Shown here: in pieces, positions 26,793 to 31,992 of the stretch | Position numbering within the stretch: position 1 is the stretch's first letter | Layout of the letters: the number at the start of each line of letters is the position of its first letter | DNA from: a virus | Reading direction: 5' to 3' (one strand) | IMG/VR virus record: IMGVR_UViG_3300031706_000592 | Span: 1-32,220 of that record | Length of the DNA: 32,220 bases | The notes under the pieces: generated by a model | Seen by the model: the letters and a program-made list of their open reading frames with translations, nothing else | What the model was told of the DNA's origin: nothing | The model's database searches: none | Made by a program: the position numbers and the translations under genes

Positions 26793-26820
26793 TAGCAAGA
26801 GCGCCGACAATGGGACACTA
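26793..26820 (-). promoter_or_regulatory. Candidate phage RNAP promoter after RNAP genes (copy 2)
   Basis: It is a 28-bp sequence identical to the copy at 31965-31992. Its minus strand contains GTGTCCCATTGTCGGCGCTC. It lies between the RNAP stop and the ribosome site of the first replication gene, as T7 class II promoters do. GG in the core could be the initiation site. It is not a sigma-70 promoter. Confidence 0.68.
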
Positions 26821-26825
26821 TAGTT

Positions 26826-26845
26826 TTGTCAAAGGTTTACTGTAC
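26826..26845 (-). repeat. 20-bp direct repeat, copy A, downstream of RNAP
   Basis: Minus strand GTACAGTAAACCTTTGACAA. It matches copy B at 29499-29518 in 19 of 20 bases, same orientation. It begins three bases after the RNAP stop and ends five bases before the 28-bp element. Confidence 0.85.
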
Positions 26846-26848
26846 TTC

Positions 26849-28168
26849 TTAGCTGAAGAAATACGGCGAGTTTAATAGTTCATTGACGTTAAAATCTCCT
26901 AGAGCAGGTGCTTCTGGAAGTTCGACATGTGGAGCATAGGAAAGTATATGTTCTCGGAACCTATCTAAGTGGTTAACCTTAAAGATCTTATGCGCCTCCT
27001 CTCGTATGCATCTGTGAAGTACATCAACTGCATTCTCCCCACAATCTAGCTGTCCATGGTGGACACCATAAGAGTCATGAATAAAAGCCGTGCTGGTAAC
27101 GCCGTAATCATTCTTTAATCTCAGTGCTACGTTCTGCAACAGCCCTGCATCAAAAGAGTGAACCACGTTGGGGCTTGCGGCTAGGTAATTCTTACGCTCG
27201 TCAAGTCCTGTGTTACGATCCTCATCCCAAAGGCGAAACTCACCCATTAAAGTCTTTACCTTAGTTTCTTTTAACTTGTGATAGGCTTGCGTACACTCTA
27301 CGCCTGTTGGAGTCACCCACTTTAATGGCAGTTCCTGCTTCGACAATGCTTTTGCACACTGTTGAAAGTACTCCATAATCGTTGACGAAGAATTAACACT
27401 GGACTTTAGTGCTTCAACAATAAGGTCACGCATATAAGCAGCGTTAGTTCCTTTCCTGCCCTCAAGATTGTCACAAAACCCATCCTTTACTAGCTGACCC
27501 GCAATGCCTCTTGGCGTCACGCCGTAGGGCGTTGTCATTGTTGCCCTTTTGCAGGTAGCTCTTGTAATCTTTCCCATCCACGCCAAGGCTTCTTCACGAC
27601 CTTGTAAGGCCATGTCATTATTCAGCACTATGACAGCATCCTTTATCTCTGTGTACAGGTCATAGCGTTTTTGAAGGCTGCTACAGTTAGTTTTAATAGC
27701 ACCCACGCTGTCCCTACCAAGTAACGATAGAATTTGCATTCCATTACAAACCCCATCTAGGGCGCACACTGATCTACTGAGAAAATGAGCAGGATTATCT
27801 AACCCAACCGCCAGTGCATACTCACGGGCGGCTGCTAGAAAAACGTATGGTTCATCAATTGAAGGATCAGTCCATAAACGGTGACCATCCAAAGGGTTTA
27901 ACCCACTGTCAATTATCATGTCGTGGTTTGCATCGACCCACGCTATGCGCTCAGCCCATGTGGCCTTATCTTGTCCTGCTGTGTTAGCCAGTGTGACTTT
28001 TAACCAGTATAAACCTCGGTCACCCAGAGGCTTTGCATGGTGGAATTGTAGAAGACCTTTACAGATCTGATCACCCTGCGGGTTTAAATCCTGGGCCATG
28101 GGGTACAGACGGGTGCGGAAGTCTGCAAAATGCGGGTATGTGTGACGAGAGGATATTCTTTTAGTCAT
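26849..28168 (-). CDS. T7-like RNA polymerase, C-terminal (catalytic) part
   Basis: This 439-residue ORF carries the palm, fingers and most of the thumb-facing parts of a single-subunit RNAP. It starts just before the DFRTRLYPM motif (T7 DWRGRVYAV). The catalytic residues are present: D138 in CALDGVCNGMQ (T7 D537), K207 in TCKRATMTTPYG (K631), Y215 (Y639) and D365 in FIHDSYGVHHG (D812). The specificity-loop region FRLWDEDRNTGLDERKNYLA is shorter than in T7, so the promoter should differ. The C-terminus ends SPYFFS, like T7 SDFAFA. AAAGG seven bases before ATG supports separate initiation. Nine residues at its start (MTKRISSRH) have no RNAP counterpart. Confidence 0.95.
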   Translation of the reverse strand: MTKRISSRHTYPHFADFRTRLYPMAQDLNPQGDQICKGLLQFHHAKPLGDRGLYWLKVTLANTAGQDKATWAERIAWVDANHDMIIDSGLNPLDGHRLWTDPSIDEPYVFLAAAREYALAVGLDNPAHFLSRSVCALDGVCNGMQILSLLGRDSVGAIKTNCSSLQKRYDLYTEIKDAVIVLNNDMALQGREEALAWMGKITRATCKRATMTTPYGVTPRGIAGQLVKDGFCDNLEGRKGTNAAYMRDLIVEALKSSVNSSSTIMEYFQQCAKALSKQELPLKWVTPTGVECTQAYHKLKETKVKTLMGEFRLWDEDRNTGLDERKNYLAASPNVVHSFDAGLLQNVALRLKNDYGVTSTAFIHDSYGVHHGQLDCGENAVDVLHRCIREEAHKIFKVNHLDRFREHILSYAPHVELPEAPALGDFNVNELLNSPYFFS

Positions 28169-28188
28169 ATTTTAGCCTTTAGTATGTG
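28136..28188 (-). repeat. 7-bp direct repeat bounding the RNAP break
   Basis: Minus-strand CACATAC occurs at 28182-28188 (end of the first RNAP ORF, followed at once by TAA) and at 28136-28142 (ninth codon boundary of the second). The copies are 46 bp apart and sit in the same codon phase (xxC ACA TAC). Deleting one copy and the intervening bases gives GETTY-PHFADF, an unbroken RNAP frame. Confidence 0.85.
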
Positions 28189-29450
28189 GTTTCGCCGCGT
28201 AAGCTACGCGCCATGTCTAACTTACGGATTAATGATTCACGTTTACTCTGCATCTTAGCGTTGTCCTCATGGATCTTACTGATCTGCAACTTCCACTCGG
28301 TGCGCTCGGCCTTATCCATTAACTCCCACTCTTCATCTGATAAGGCTACTGGTAATTCATCGTCTTCAACGGGTGGCAACCCGCCTAAAAAACCTCCTTC
28401 TTGTCTAACAGTGAGGATTGTGTCCAATATAAAGTCGTTCACTTGCCACTCTGTGGACTGCACCACGTTTATGGCATCTAGGAAACGATCACTTATGGCT
28501 TCTGGGTAGCTGGCTGTATGGCTGTACATTCCAGATCGCATCAACTTATGCTGAATGATTTCATACCCACCCGAAAACCCGACTAACTTACCTTCATCAT
28601 TGTATTTATGTTCCCACTTATTAGGTTGCATCCTCATGGGAACCATATACGGCCTGTTAACCTCAAGCTGCGAGTTAATATCAACTAGTGCCTGTTGAGC
28701 CTCGGAACTCATAAAAACTCGGCGTTCAGTTTTTCCGTTTCGATAGACTAGTCTAGATTCAAACCAGCCACCGCCATGTTTGATCATAAGGTCTAGCAAC
28801 TTAGCGCCAATGTGGACACGGGTATCTGGGGGCCAATCCTCATTCTGGATGCTATCCATCTTGGCCTTCCACCTTGCCCAAGTTTTTCTTTTGATCGTGC
28901 CTCCCACCTTTTTAATTAGCCACTCCGCAAAGTCAAAACCATCCTGATCAGCCGCCATGATCTTTGATTGCTTCTTCCACTTGTTGAATTCAATTTGTTC
29001 TTTGACTGCCTGTCCTATACGCAGGTTTAAACCTGTCGCCGCTCGGCCTTGGTAGGACTCACCGCTGGCCTTCTCCGTGAGGATAGTTCTGGCAGTAACT
29101 AATGCAATCTCTTCAGCACTTAGCCAACCTATTAGCCACCACCAATCCTTGTGGCGATACTTGTGTCCCGCTGTGATCTCTCGCTTAGCTTCTTCAATGG
29201 CAGCATGGAAGTGTGGAATGGCGTGAATCATCATTTCTTTAAGAATTATTTGACCCGGAGCTACGTCCCCCAACTCAGCAGATTCATGTTTAACATCCCC
29301 GTTGCGTGAAGTTTTCACTGTACTAAAGGTTGAGTGATAACGCTCCTTTCCACGATCAATGGCTGACGCCTCCCAAAGTACTTCCCTTTCTATCTCCGTT
29401 ATCAACAGAGTTTTTTCTGGCTGCTCTTTTGGCTGTATGCTGTCTGTCAT
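28179..29450 (-). CDS. T7-like RNA polymerase, N-terminal part
   Basis: This 423-residue ORF corresponds to about the first 415 residues of T7 RNAP: the N-terminal promoter-binding/RNA-exit domain and the start of the thumb. Recognisable parts are ITAGHKYRHKDWWWLIGWLS, LNLRIGQAVKEQIEFNKWKK, HIGAKLLDLMIKHGGGWFES and NRPYMVPM. It ends SLIRKLDMARSLRGETTY, where other members continue into the F/Y-P-x-x-x-D-F/W-R-x-R motif. The stop lies ten bases before the start of the second ORF. AGGG precedes its ATG, 14 bases downstream of a terminator. With the second ORF it should form a working polymerase of two chains, or one chain if ribosomes bypass the gap. Confidence 0.9.
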   Translation of the reverse strand: MTDSIQPKEQPEKTLLITEIEREVLWEASAIDRGKERYHSTFSTVKTSRNGDVKHESAELGDVAPGQIILKEMMIHAIPHFHAAIEEAKREITAGHKYRHKDWWWLIGWLSAEEIALVTARTILTEKASGESYQGRAATGLNLRIGQAVKEQIEFNKWKKQSKIMAADQDGFDFAEWLIKKVGGTIKRKTWARWKAKMDSIQNEDWPPDTRVHIGAKLLDLMIKHGGGWFESRLVYRNGKTERRVFMSSEAQQALVDINSQLEVNRPYMVPMRMQPNKWEHKYNDEGKLVGFSGGYEIIQHKLMRSGMYSHTASYPEAISDRFLDAINVVQSTEWQVNDFILDTILTVRQEGGFLGGLPPVEDDELPVALSDEEWELMDKAERTEWKLQISKIHEDNAKMQSKRESLIRKLDMARSLRGETTY

Positions 29451-29498: not shown

Positions 29499-29518
29499 TT
29501 GTCAAAAGTTTACTGTAC
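29499..29518 (-). repeat. 20-bp direct repeat, copy B, upstream of RNAP
   Basis: Minus strand GTACAGTAAACTTTTGACAA, 19/20 identical to copy A at 26826-26845. It stands immediately upstream of the terminator stem. A TTGACA sequence is present, but there is no -10 at a usable distance in either copy. Confidence 0.85.
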
Positions 29519-29752: not shown

Positions 29753-30985
29753 TTACCTGTTGTAGGCGTCCCCTAATGCGCCCTCAAGGTCAGTTGATAT
29801 AAGGGTTGTGGCTGAGTTGCGTAACTTATGACCTTTGTTCATCGCATCTGAAGGGCGCATATGAATATATTTCATACTCATCTCTTCATTAGCGTGACCT
29901 AATAGGTGCATTAGTTCACTCGGTATGATGCCCTGCTCAGTGAGTCGGGTGGCATACGAATCGCGCAGACTATGGACAGTAAATTTGCCATGTCGCTTGA
30001 CTATCTCAGGATCATTTAGACCTGCTCGGTCTATTCCAGTTCGGAGAGCGCCAAGGCTTCCCGTCTTACACTTCTTGGTGTCAAAAGCATGGGGAAAAAC
30101 GAAATCAGAATTCCTGGACCCCCTATGTTTCCACCTAGATTGTAGTACCTCACGAAGACGATCAGTCATTTGCAGCATGTCCGTACGATCAGTCTTTTTA
30201 CGCCATACCCTAATGGCTATCCAGTTGACTGTATCTACATCTGCCCACAAGATCTTCCGACCTTCCGCTGAGCGTAACCCAAGATCAAGATATGTGATTA
30301 GTAGATGAAAAGAATCCACTGACCAGATCCGCTGATTCTTCGGCGCACGTTCCCAAGAACATCCGTTAAGATAGGTTTTTGTAGTCGGATTCATTGCATC
30401 TATTAAACGCTGTTCCTCTTCTACATTAGCCGCTCTGGTTTTCTTTTTGACCTTCATATGCAAATCATCAAAGTCCATTTCATGATTTATCTTGATGCCC
30501 CAATTCTTCTTACAGCATTTTTGGATCTGCTGAAGTTGGTCGATCTCTTTGTTGATCGATGCGGGTGCATAGCCTTCACGTTTGCGATTCATCATGATCT
30601 GATCTAAGTCGCGGTTGGTCATGCTAGACCAGAGCCTATTAGGATTGAGTGAGAACGGCATGATCCTGTTAGGAACACGATATAACTCCTCTACGGGGAA
30701 CTGTCCACACAGACGTTTTCTTAGTGCCCCTGCTTGCTTTTCACCTGACTCAGTTAACAGGGTCTGACGCTCGTAATAGCGATTCAAAACCTGTTCGATT
30801 GTTTCCTCACTATTAAGACCAGCGTGTTTATGCGCCCTCTCCTTTTGTGATAACAATTCGGCAACCTCTTTGGCTTCCTTCTTGTTGCTAGTGCCTGTGG
30901 ATTTCTTCTGTCCATTGATATGAACATACCAGTTCTGGCTGATTGTTTTACCCGCCGCATCGGTTCGTTTAAATAATTTTGTCAT
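29753..30985 (-). CDS. int: Tyrosine-recombinase integrase
   Basis: This 410-residue protein has three parts. The N-terminal arm-binding type domain contains NWYVHINGQKKSTGTSNKKE. The core-binding helical domain spans about 60-180. The catalytic domain holds R238 (LDLGLRSAEG), K264 (WRKKTDRTD), H338 and R341 (VHSLRDSYATRL), H364 (LLGHANEE) and the nucleophile Y373 (MKYIHM). All catalytic residues are present, so it should be active in site-specific integration. AGGA seven bases before ATG gives the start. It is the last gene of the early block and implies lysogeny, which is rare in classical T7 relatives but known in marine podophages. Confidence 0.96.
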   Translation of the reverse strand: MTKLFKRTDAAGKTISQNWYVHINGQKKSTGTSNKKEAKEVAELLSQKERAHKHAGLNSEETIEQVLNRYYERQTLLTESGEKQAGALRKRLCGQFPVEELYRVPNRIMPFSLNPNRLWSSMTNRDLDQIMMNRKREGYAPASINKEIDQLQQIQKCCKKNWGIKINHEMDFDDLHMKVKKKTRAANVEEEQRLIDAMNPTTKTYLNGCSWERAPKNQRIWSVDSFHLLITYLDLGLRSAEGRKILWADVDTVNWIAIRVWRKKTDRTDMLQMTDRLREVLQSRWKHRGSRNSDFVFPHAFDTKKCKTGSLGALRTGIDRAGLNDPEIVKRHGKFTVHSLRDSYATRLTEQGIIPSELMHLLGHANEEMSMKYIHMRPSDAMNKGHKLRNSATTLISTDLEGALGDAYNR

Positions 30986-31964: not shown

Positions 31965-31992
31965 TAGCAAGAGCGCCGACAATGGGACACTA
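31965..31992 (-). promoter_or_regulatory. Candidate phage RNAP promoter in the early region (copy 3)
   Basis: It is 28 bp identical to 26793-26820. It stands about 100 bases before the 84-aa gene and downstream of the host-type promoter. It would let the phage polymerase transcribe the early block as well. Confidence 0.65.

Follow-up and report, generated by a model that had tools for sequence, protein, structure and literature searches.

T7-type RNA polymerases (RNAPs) are, in the textbook view, enzymes of a single chain, and to our knowledge RNAP II of phage N4 has so far been the natural exception. Here we ask whether a virus in which a T7-type RNAP is encoded by two separate open reading frames (ORFs) makes one working enzyme from them, and how such a split could have come about. 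The stretch of DNA analysed, the window, comprises 32,220 nt (positions 1-32,220 of the IMG/VR record IMGVR_UViG_3300031706_000592) and is a fragment of a virus genome.

Both RNAP genes, with all the junction elements described here, lie on the minus strand. The N-chain (28179..29450; 423 aa; Pfam RPOL_N, 5.7e-11) corresponds to the N-terminal domain and thumb, residues ~29-414 of T7 RNAP, and the C-chain (26849..28168; 439 aa; Pfam RNA_pol, 1.4e-81) to the palm and fingers, residues ~407-883. The first ORF ends in RGETTY and a TAA stop, the second opens with ATG (MTKRISSRHTYPHFADFRTR), and the spacer between them is 10 nt long (28169..28178). A Shine-Dalgarno-like AAAGG (28176..28180) overlaps the N-chain stop and stands 7 nt before the ATG of the C-chain, whose frame has a stop a few codons 5' of that ATG. 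The heptamer CACATAC is present at the end of the N-chain (28182..28188, encoding ..TTY before the stop) and again at C-chain residues 9-11 (28136..28142, HTY), 46 bp apart from start to start and in the same codon phase. At the start of the palm stands DFRTR (28109..28123), a motif of the DxxGR type; the C-chain carries DxxGR and motifs A, B and C, and its residues D138, K207, Y215 and D365 (T7 D537, K631, Y639 and D812) do not vary across 54 aligned sequences. An earlier reading of this DNA, from its letters only, had described a T7-like RNAP in two ORFs, the repeat, the stop, ribosome site and start at the junction, and a full set of catalytic residues; all of these are borne out, and the two intact ORFs together tile T7 RNAP.

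Profile matches in Pfam, PHROG and PDB show homology from the N-terminal domain through the thumb to the palm and fingers and place the pair in the T7-type family, from whose one-polypeptide form it departs by having two ORFs in different frames, an arrangement kept in relatives. The position of the break in the fold follows from predicted structures: the AlphaFold model of the N-chain (pLDDT 87) aligns over residues 16-423 to T7 29-414 (Z ~17), that of the C-chain (pLDDT 94) over residues 2-439 to T7 407-883 (Z ~36), and PHROG 414 is tiled by the N-chain (5-381) and the C-chain (386-816). Since the thumb passes into the palm between residues 411 and 412 of T7 RNAP (PMC5524818), these alignments and the tiling put the break at the thumb/palm boundary, about ten residues ahead of DxxGR. 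In the model, the long final helix of the thumb (residues 380-416) precedes it and the first strand of the palm follows; the chain ends overlap slightly in T7 numbering (407-414), and C-chain residues 1-7, modelled with very low confidence, are probably disordered.

Is this arrangement a property of a lineage or an accident of one contig? When both ORFs were aligned to close relatives, the check that the sequence-only reading had proposed, none proved continuous and all shared the break at the same residue: L001/L002 (87% identical), L003 (86%), L013/L014 (83%) and L173 (84%), that is, four relatives in six assemblies, all from IMG/VR except L173, a contig of a Bermanella metagenome-assembled genome (MAG). 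In the collections searched there was no close relative with a continuous RNAP, and the closest deposited phage is only ~35% identical over the C-chain. The group forms a clade with 100/100 support in an IQ-TREE tree, in which the nearest row, L021 (placement 88/87), is itself broken, at a different site (GGY, see below). Synonymous sites within the group are at or near saturation, dN is only 0.08-0.18, and dN/dS is 0.039-0.049 in the three computable comparisons; both RNAP halves are under strong purifying selection. A faulty assembly or gene decay, as might be feared of a 32-kb virus fragment, is therefore a scarcely credible explanation of the break: five more contigs from different samples and the MAG contig share it with differing spacers, and selection preserves the N-chain and the C-chain alike.

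The adjacency of the two genes and the shortness of the spacer could also point to recoding, with a frameshift or readthrough joining both frames into one long chain. The C-chain frame is offset from that of the N-chain by +1 in the window and by +2 in all close relatives, and thus frameshifting or readthrough is not a shared route of expression. The stop codons vary as well (TAA, TAG), the spacer, which is 11 nt in L003 and L173 and 11 nt in L013, reaches 38 nt with additional stops in L001, and the window holds no Rfam element; we consider recoding highly improbable. The close relatives also have separate start codons for the C-chain.

Taken with these comparisons, it is very probable that the phage encodes a functional heterodimeric T7-type RNAP, a reading built on sequence and structure prediction. 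Its basis is the intact ORFs, the conserved break, the purifying selection and the predicted folds that tile T7 RNAP, from which we infer the co-translation, association and activity of both chains. The N-chain, with the N-terminal domain and thumb, and the C-chain, with the palm, fingers and all catalytic residues, would be translated successively from the same strand, the latter from a start codon of its own, 10 nt past the N-chain stop; each chain would fold like its half of T7 RNAP, and the two would bind each other by the native contacts of thumb with palm and of N-terminal domain with palm, and the assembled enzyme would read the phage middle and late genes. Split phage enzymes that kept their function are known (Aeh1 NrdA, phage 25 gp43A/B; PMC2988022), and T7 RNAP itself stays active after being divided artificially into two to four pieces that are expressed together (PMC4299498). 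It is very unlikely that the chains do not form one enzyme, with the C-chain working alone or the N-chain doing another job: nothing was found in favour of this reading, every member keeps the N-chain next to the C-chain and conserves both, and the N-terminal domain of T7 RNAP holds the elements of promoter recognition and opening (PMC5524818).

On this reading the gene probably split once, in the common ancestor of the small clade, within the loop that joins the final helix of the thumb to the first strand of the palm. The sequence-only reading had gone further and attributed the split to a 46-bp event with a CACATAC copy on either side, a duplication or an insertion as it may be understood. 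There is something to be said for such an event. When pairs of in-gene stretches as large as these were drawn at random, 2.3% shared a 7-mer in the same phase and 4.6% shared one in any phase, so that chance would supply such a repeat only about 2% of the time; L013 has a longer match (ACACACTTAC/ACACACATAC, 9/10); both chains cover T7 residues 407-414, a slight overlap of their ends; and a 21-nt tandem duplication in the L001 spacer indicates that duplications do occur there. This duplication, within the spacer between the RNAP genes, is seen in L001 and L011 (L011 3450-3491). When the sequence before the first CACATAC was compared with the 46-bp unit as a tandem duplication, identity exceeded that of shuffles only with 3' anchoring and only in L013 (P = 0.001) and the window (P = 0.013). 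The local repeat match, on the other hand, does not exceed shuffles (window P = 0.26, overall P 0.08-0.83), and the intervening bases bear no clear resemblance to the flank. Only the window genome has an exact 7-bp repeat; it is degraded to ACTACTTAT/CACACATAC in L001 and ACAACTTAT/CACACCTAT in L003; at the residue level TTY (or HTY) and HTY persist at both chain ends in relatives. Removal of the 46 bp does restore the frame, as had been claimed, but not without a gap: the fused loop GETTY-PHFADFRTR is shorter than in nearly all continuous relatives, by one residue relative to L021 (at 55-56% identity the nearest relative continuous at the thumb/palm break), by two relative to most and by four relative to L023 and L028. 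Further, L023 reads ELMASRFSRFTYPQKIDTRTR and has an internal Met at the position of the C-chain start (ELMASRFSRFTYP), which fits a plain stop plus an internal start too.

The 46-bp origin is thus a tentative idea that we regard as rather unlikely, and the claim as first made is not supported. Close relatives are broken with other spacers (11, 11 and 38 nt) and a degraded repeat, which comes near to the outcome named beforehand as speaking against it, namely relatives that are all broken with unrelated junctions. A short duplication is weakly supported, and a stop with an internal start is a possible and equally good explanation. Another route, documented in phages (PMC2988022), is that a homing endonuclease or intron, later lost, left a split gene behind as in Aeh1 nrdA, and relatives broken at the other split site do have genes between the halves. 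We consider this improbable for the window: there is no ORF between its RNAP halves and no endonuclease at the junction, the spacers of 10-38 nt are not those of an intron or intein, neither the window nor any of 15 gap-bearing relatives matched an Rfam intron, and the gap genes tested against Pfam are BRO-N, SPFH and DNA ligase.

The nearest known parallel is N4 RNAP II (gp15 and gp16, PDB 6DT7, Schitoviridae), which had rightly been cited as a precedent: it too is a natural two-chain RNAP of the T7-type family encoded by adjacent genes. A two-chain T7-type RNAP is therefore already known, and the window differs from it by break site and lineage. In N4 the break follows DxxGR, gp15 containing DKRGR and ~30 residues more (PMC4496689), and gp16 aligns only from residue 50 of the window C-chain, whereas the window RNAP is broken before this motif. 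As regards lineage, the C-chain is by sequence closest to Autographiviridae-type RNAPs, with a profile match of 1.2e-118 to PHROG 414 against 1.1e-35 to the N4-like family; the largest ORF in the window, itself a fragment, is at most 1398 aa, a check made against the giant virion RNAP of N4/Schitoviridae. With Autographiviridae of the T7, pelagiphage and roseophage type the window shares the RNAP family, the T7-like capsid and connector, and the neighbourhood of integrase, RNAP, SSB, endonuclease, primase/helicase and DNA polymerase. According to PMC11092137 these phages have just one RNAP gene, unlike the two genes of the window; no account of a two-chain RNAP in a phage of the Autographiviridae type was found in the openly accessible literature, an absence of little weight. 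Aeh1 NrdA, phage 25 gp43A/B and T4 gp39/gp60 resemble the window in that a conserved enzyme is made from two translated genes, with reassembly in our case inferred; those cases are linked to homing endonucleases or untranslated inserts, whereas the window group has a spacer of 10-38 nt and neither. Engineered T7 RNAP, active as two co-expressed fragments (PMC4299498), differs in that its split is artificial and in that the seams named in the accessible part of that study (67, 179 and 601) do not include one near 414.

Fission of this polymerase extends beyond the group of the window. The sequence-only reading had known of no T7-type enzyme formed in this way, a statement that needs widening: among 155 related loci checked for frame continuity, about 30 in the same larger clade have an RNAP broken at another site, between a conserved P..W and GGY (T7 ~279-283), the N-chain ending just past ..PW and the C-chain beginning M..GGY. 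These loci are L015, L021, L022, L030, L034-L036, L041-L043, L045 and L047, together with L050-L054, L056-L065, L068, L071, L074 and L175. Their halves are 0-2.6 kb apart; they overlap or almost touch in L022, L045, L071, L074 and L065, and the others have a gap of 0.4-2.6 kb with unrelated genes, including those for BRO-N proteins, an SPFH protein and a DNA ligase. BRO-N/antirepressor-like genes stand between the RNAP chains in some relatives. In L065 (31-2601) the halves are in the same frame, with one stop codon between them and then a new Met (LTWK*...MSELFSGGFY). L175 is a prophage in the genome of the strain ATCC 23634 of Devosia enhydra; related RNAPs are present in 6 of the 297 genomes sampled from the order of Devosia, and of these six the one in Devosia alone is split. 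Neither the thumb/palm nor the P..W/GGY site is that of N4 RNAP II.

On the tree, continuous members are interspersed among those split at P..W/GGY, and parsimony requires at least six changes by fission or fusion, at least five of them forced by well supported branches; alternative histories invoke eight fissions without any re-fusion, or one fission and six re-fusions. The linker from P..W to GGY measures 5 residues in most outgroup RNAPs and 8-14 in most continuous members of the clade and its sister, and reaches 24-28 in the continuous RNAPs of L044 and L049, which are possibly re-fused genes; these lengths suggest that lengthening preceded breakage or resulted from it.

Polymerases held to be one chain may thus be two-chain more often than has been recognised, and the three natural split sites (thumb/palm, N4 and the recurrent P..W/GGY) show where nature can cut the enzyme. 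Natural split RNAPs would be ready-made orthogonal split RNAPs, and they make a regulatory role of splitting testable. One could speculate that a two-chain RNAP is a two-key switch, which permits transcription only once both chains are made, and that the polymerase of this clade broke repeatedly at two sites, and was perhaps joined again, for this reason; we find this improbable, though if true it would suit the control of lysogeny in podophages that mostly bear an integrase.

The window carries the gene set of a T7-like podophage, with integrase, SSB, RusA, ribonucleotide reductase, ThyX, PhoH and a T7-type capsid and connector, and also a helicase/primase and DNA polymerase, both named from sequence only. 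Its Autographiviridae features are a Gp10A-like capsid (3.6e-40), Head-tail_con (1.2e-72), a T7-type SSB and the RNAP. A tyrosine integrase (29753..30985, minus strand; Pfam PF00589, 7.2e-19), a temperate signature, adjoins the RNAP genes, and the carriers of the thumb/palm split are a small group of marine bacterial viruses, probably temperate. L173 (JAPYOO010000011.1) is a 43-kb contig of a close relative binned in the Bermanella MAG; it may hint at the host, or at an error of binning, and is the one host lead found for this group.

No cognate promoter set was found in the window, and among repeated promoter-like motifs in its intergenic DNA nothing clearly exceeded shuffles except two pairs of repeats. 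One pair brackets both RNAP genes on the minus strand, GTACAGTAAACTTTTGACA upstream (29500..29518; 0.03 matches expected in the window) and GTACAGTAAACCTTTGACA downstream (26827..26845). A repeat like GTACAGTAAACCTTTGACA occurs exactly twice and in this bracketing position in every member with the thumb/palm split, including L016, L018, L019 and L173, some copies having up to 3 mismatches, and is absent from the other relatives checked; it is a candidate operator, promoter or recombination site. The second pair is a perfect 28-nt repeat, TAGTGTCCCATTGTCGGCGCTCTTGCTA, which stands after the RNAP genes (26793-26820) and before the early genes (31965-31992). Relatives have lineage-specific versions of it, ending in CTCTTGCTA, at matching places, and it is a candidate phage promoter.
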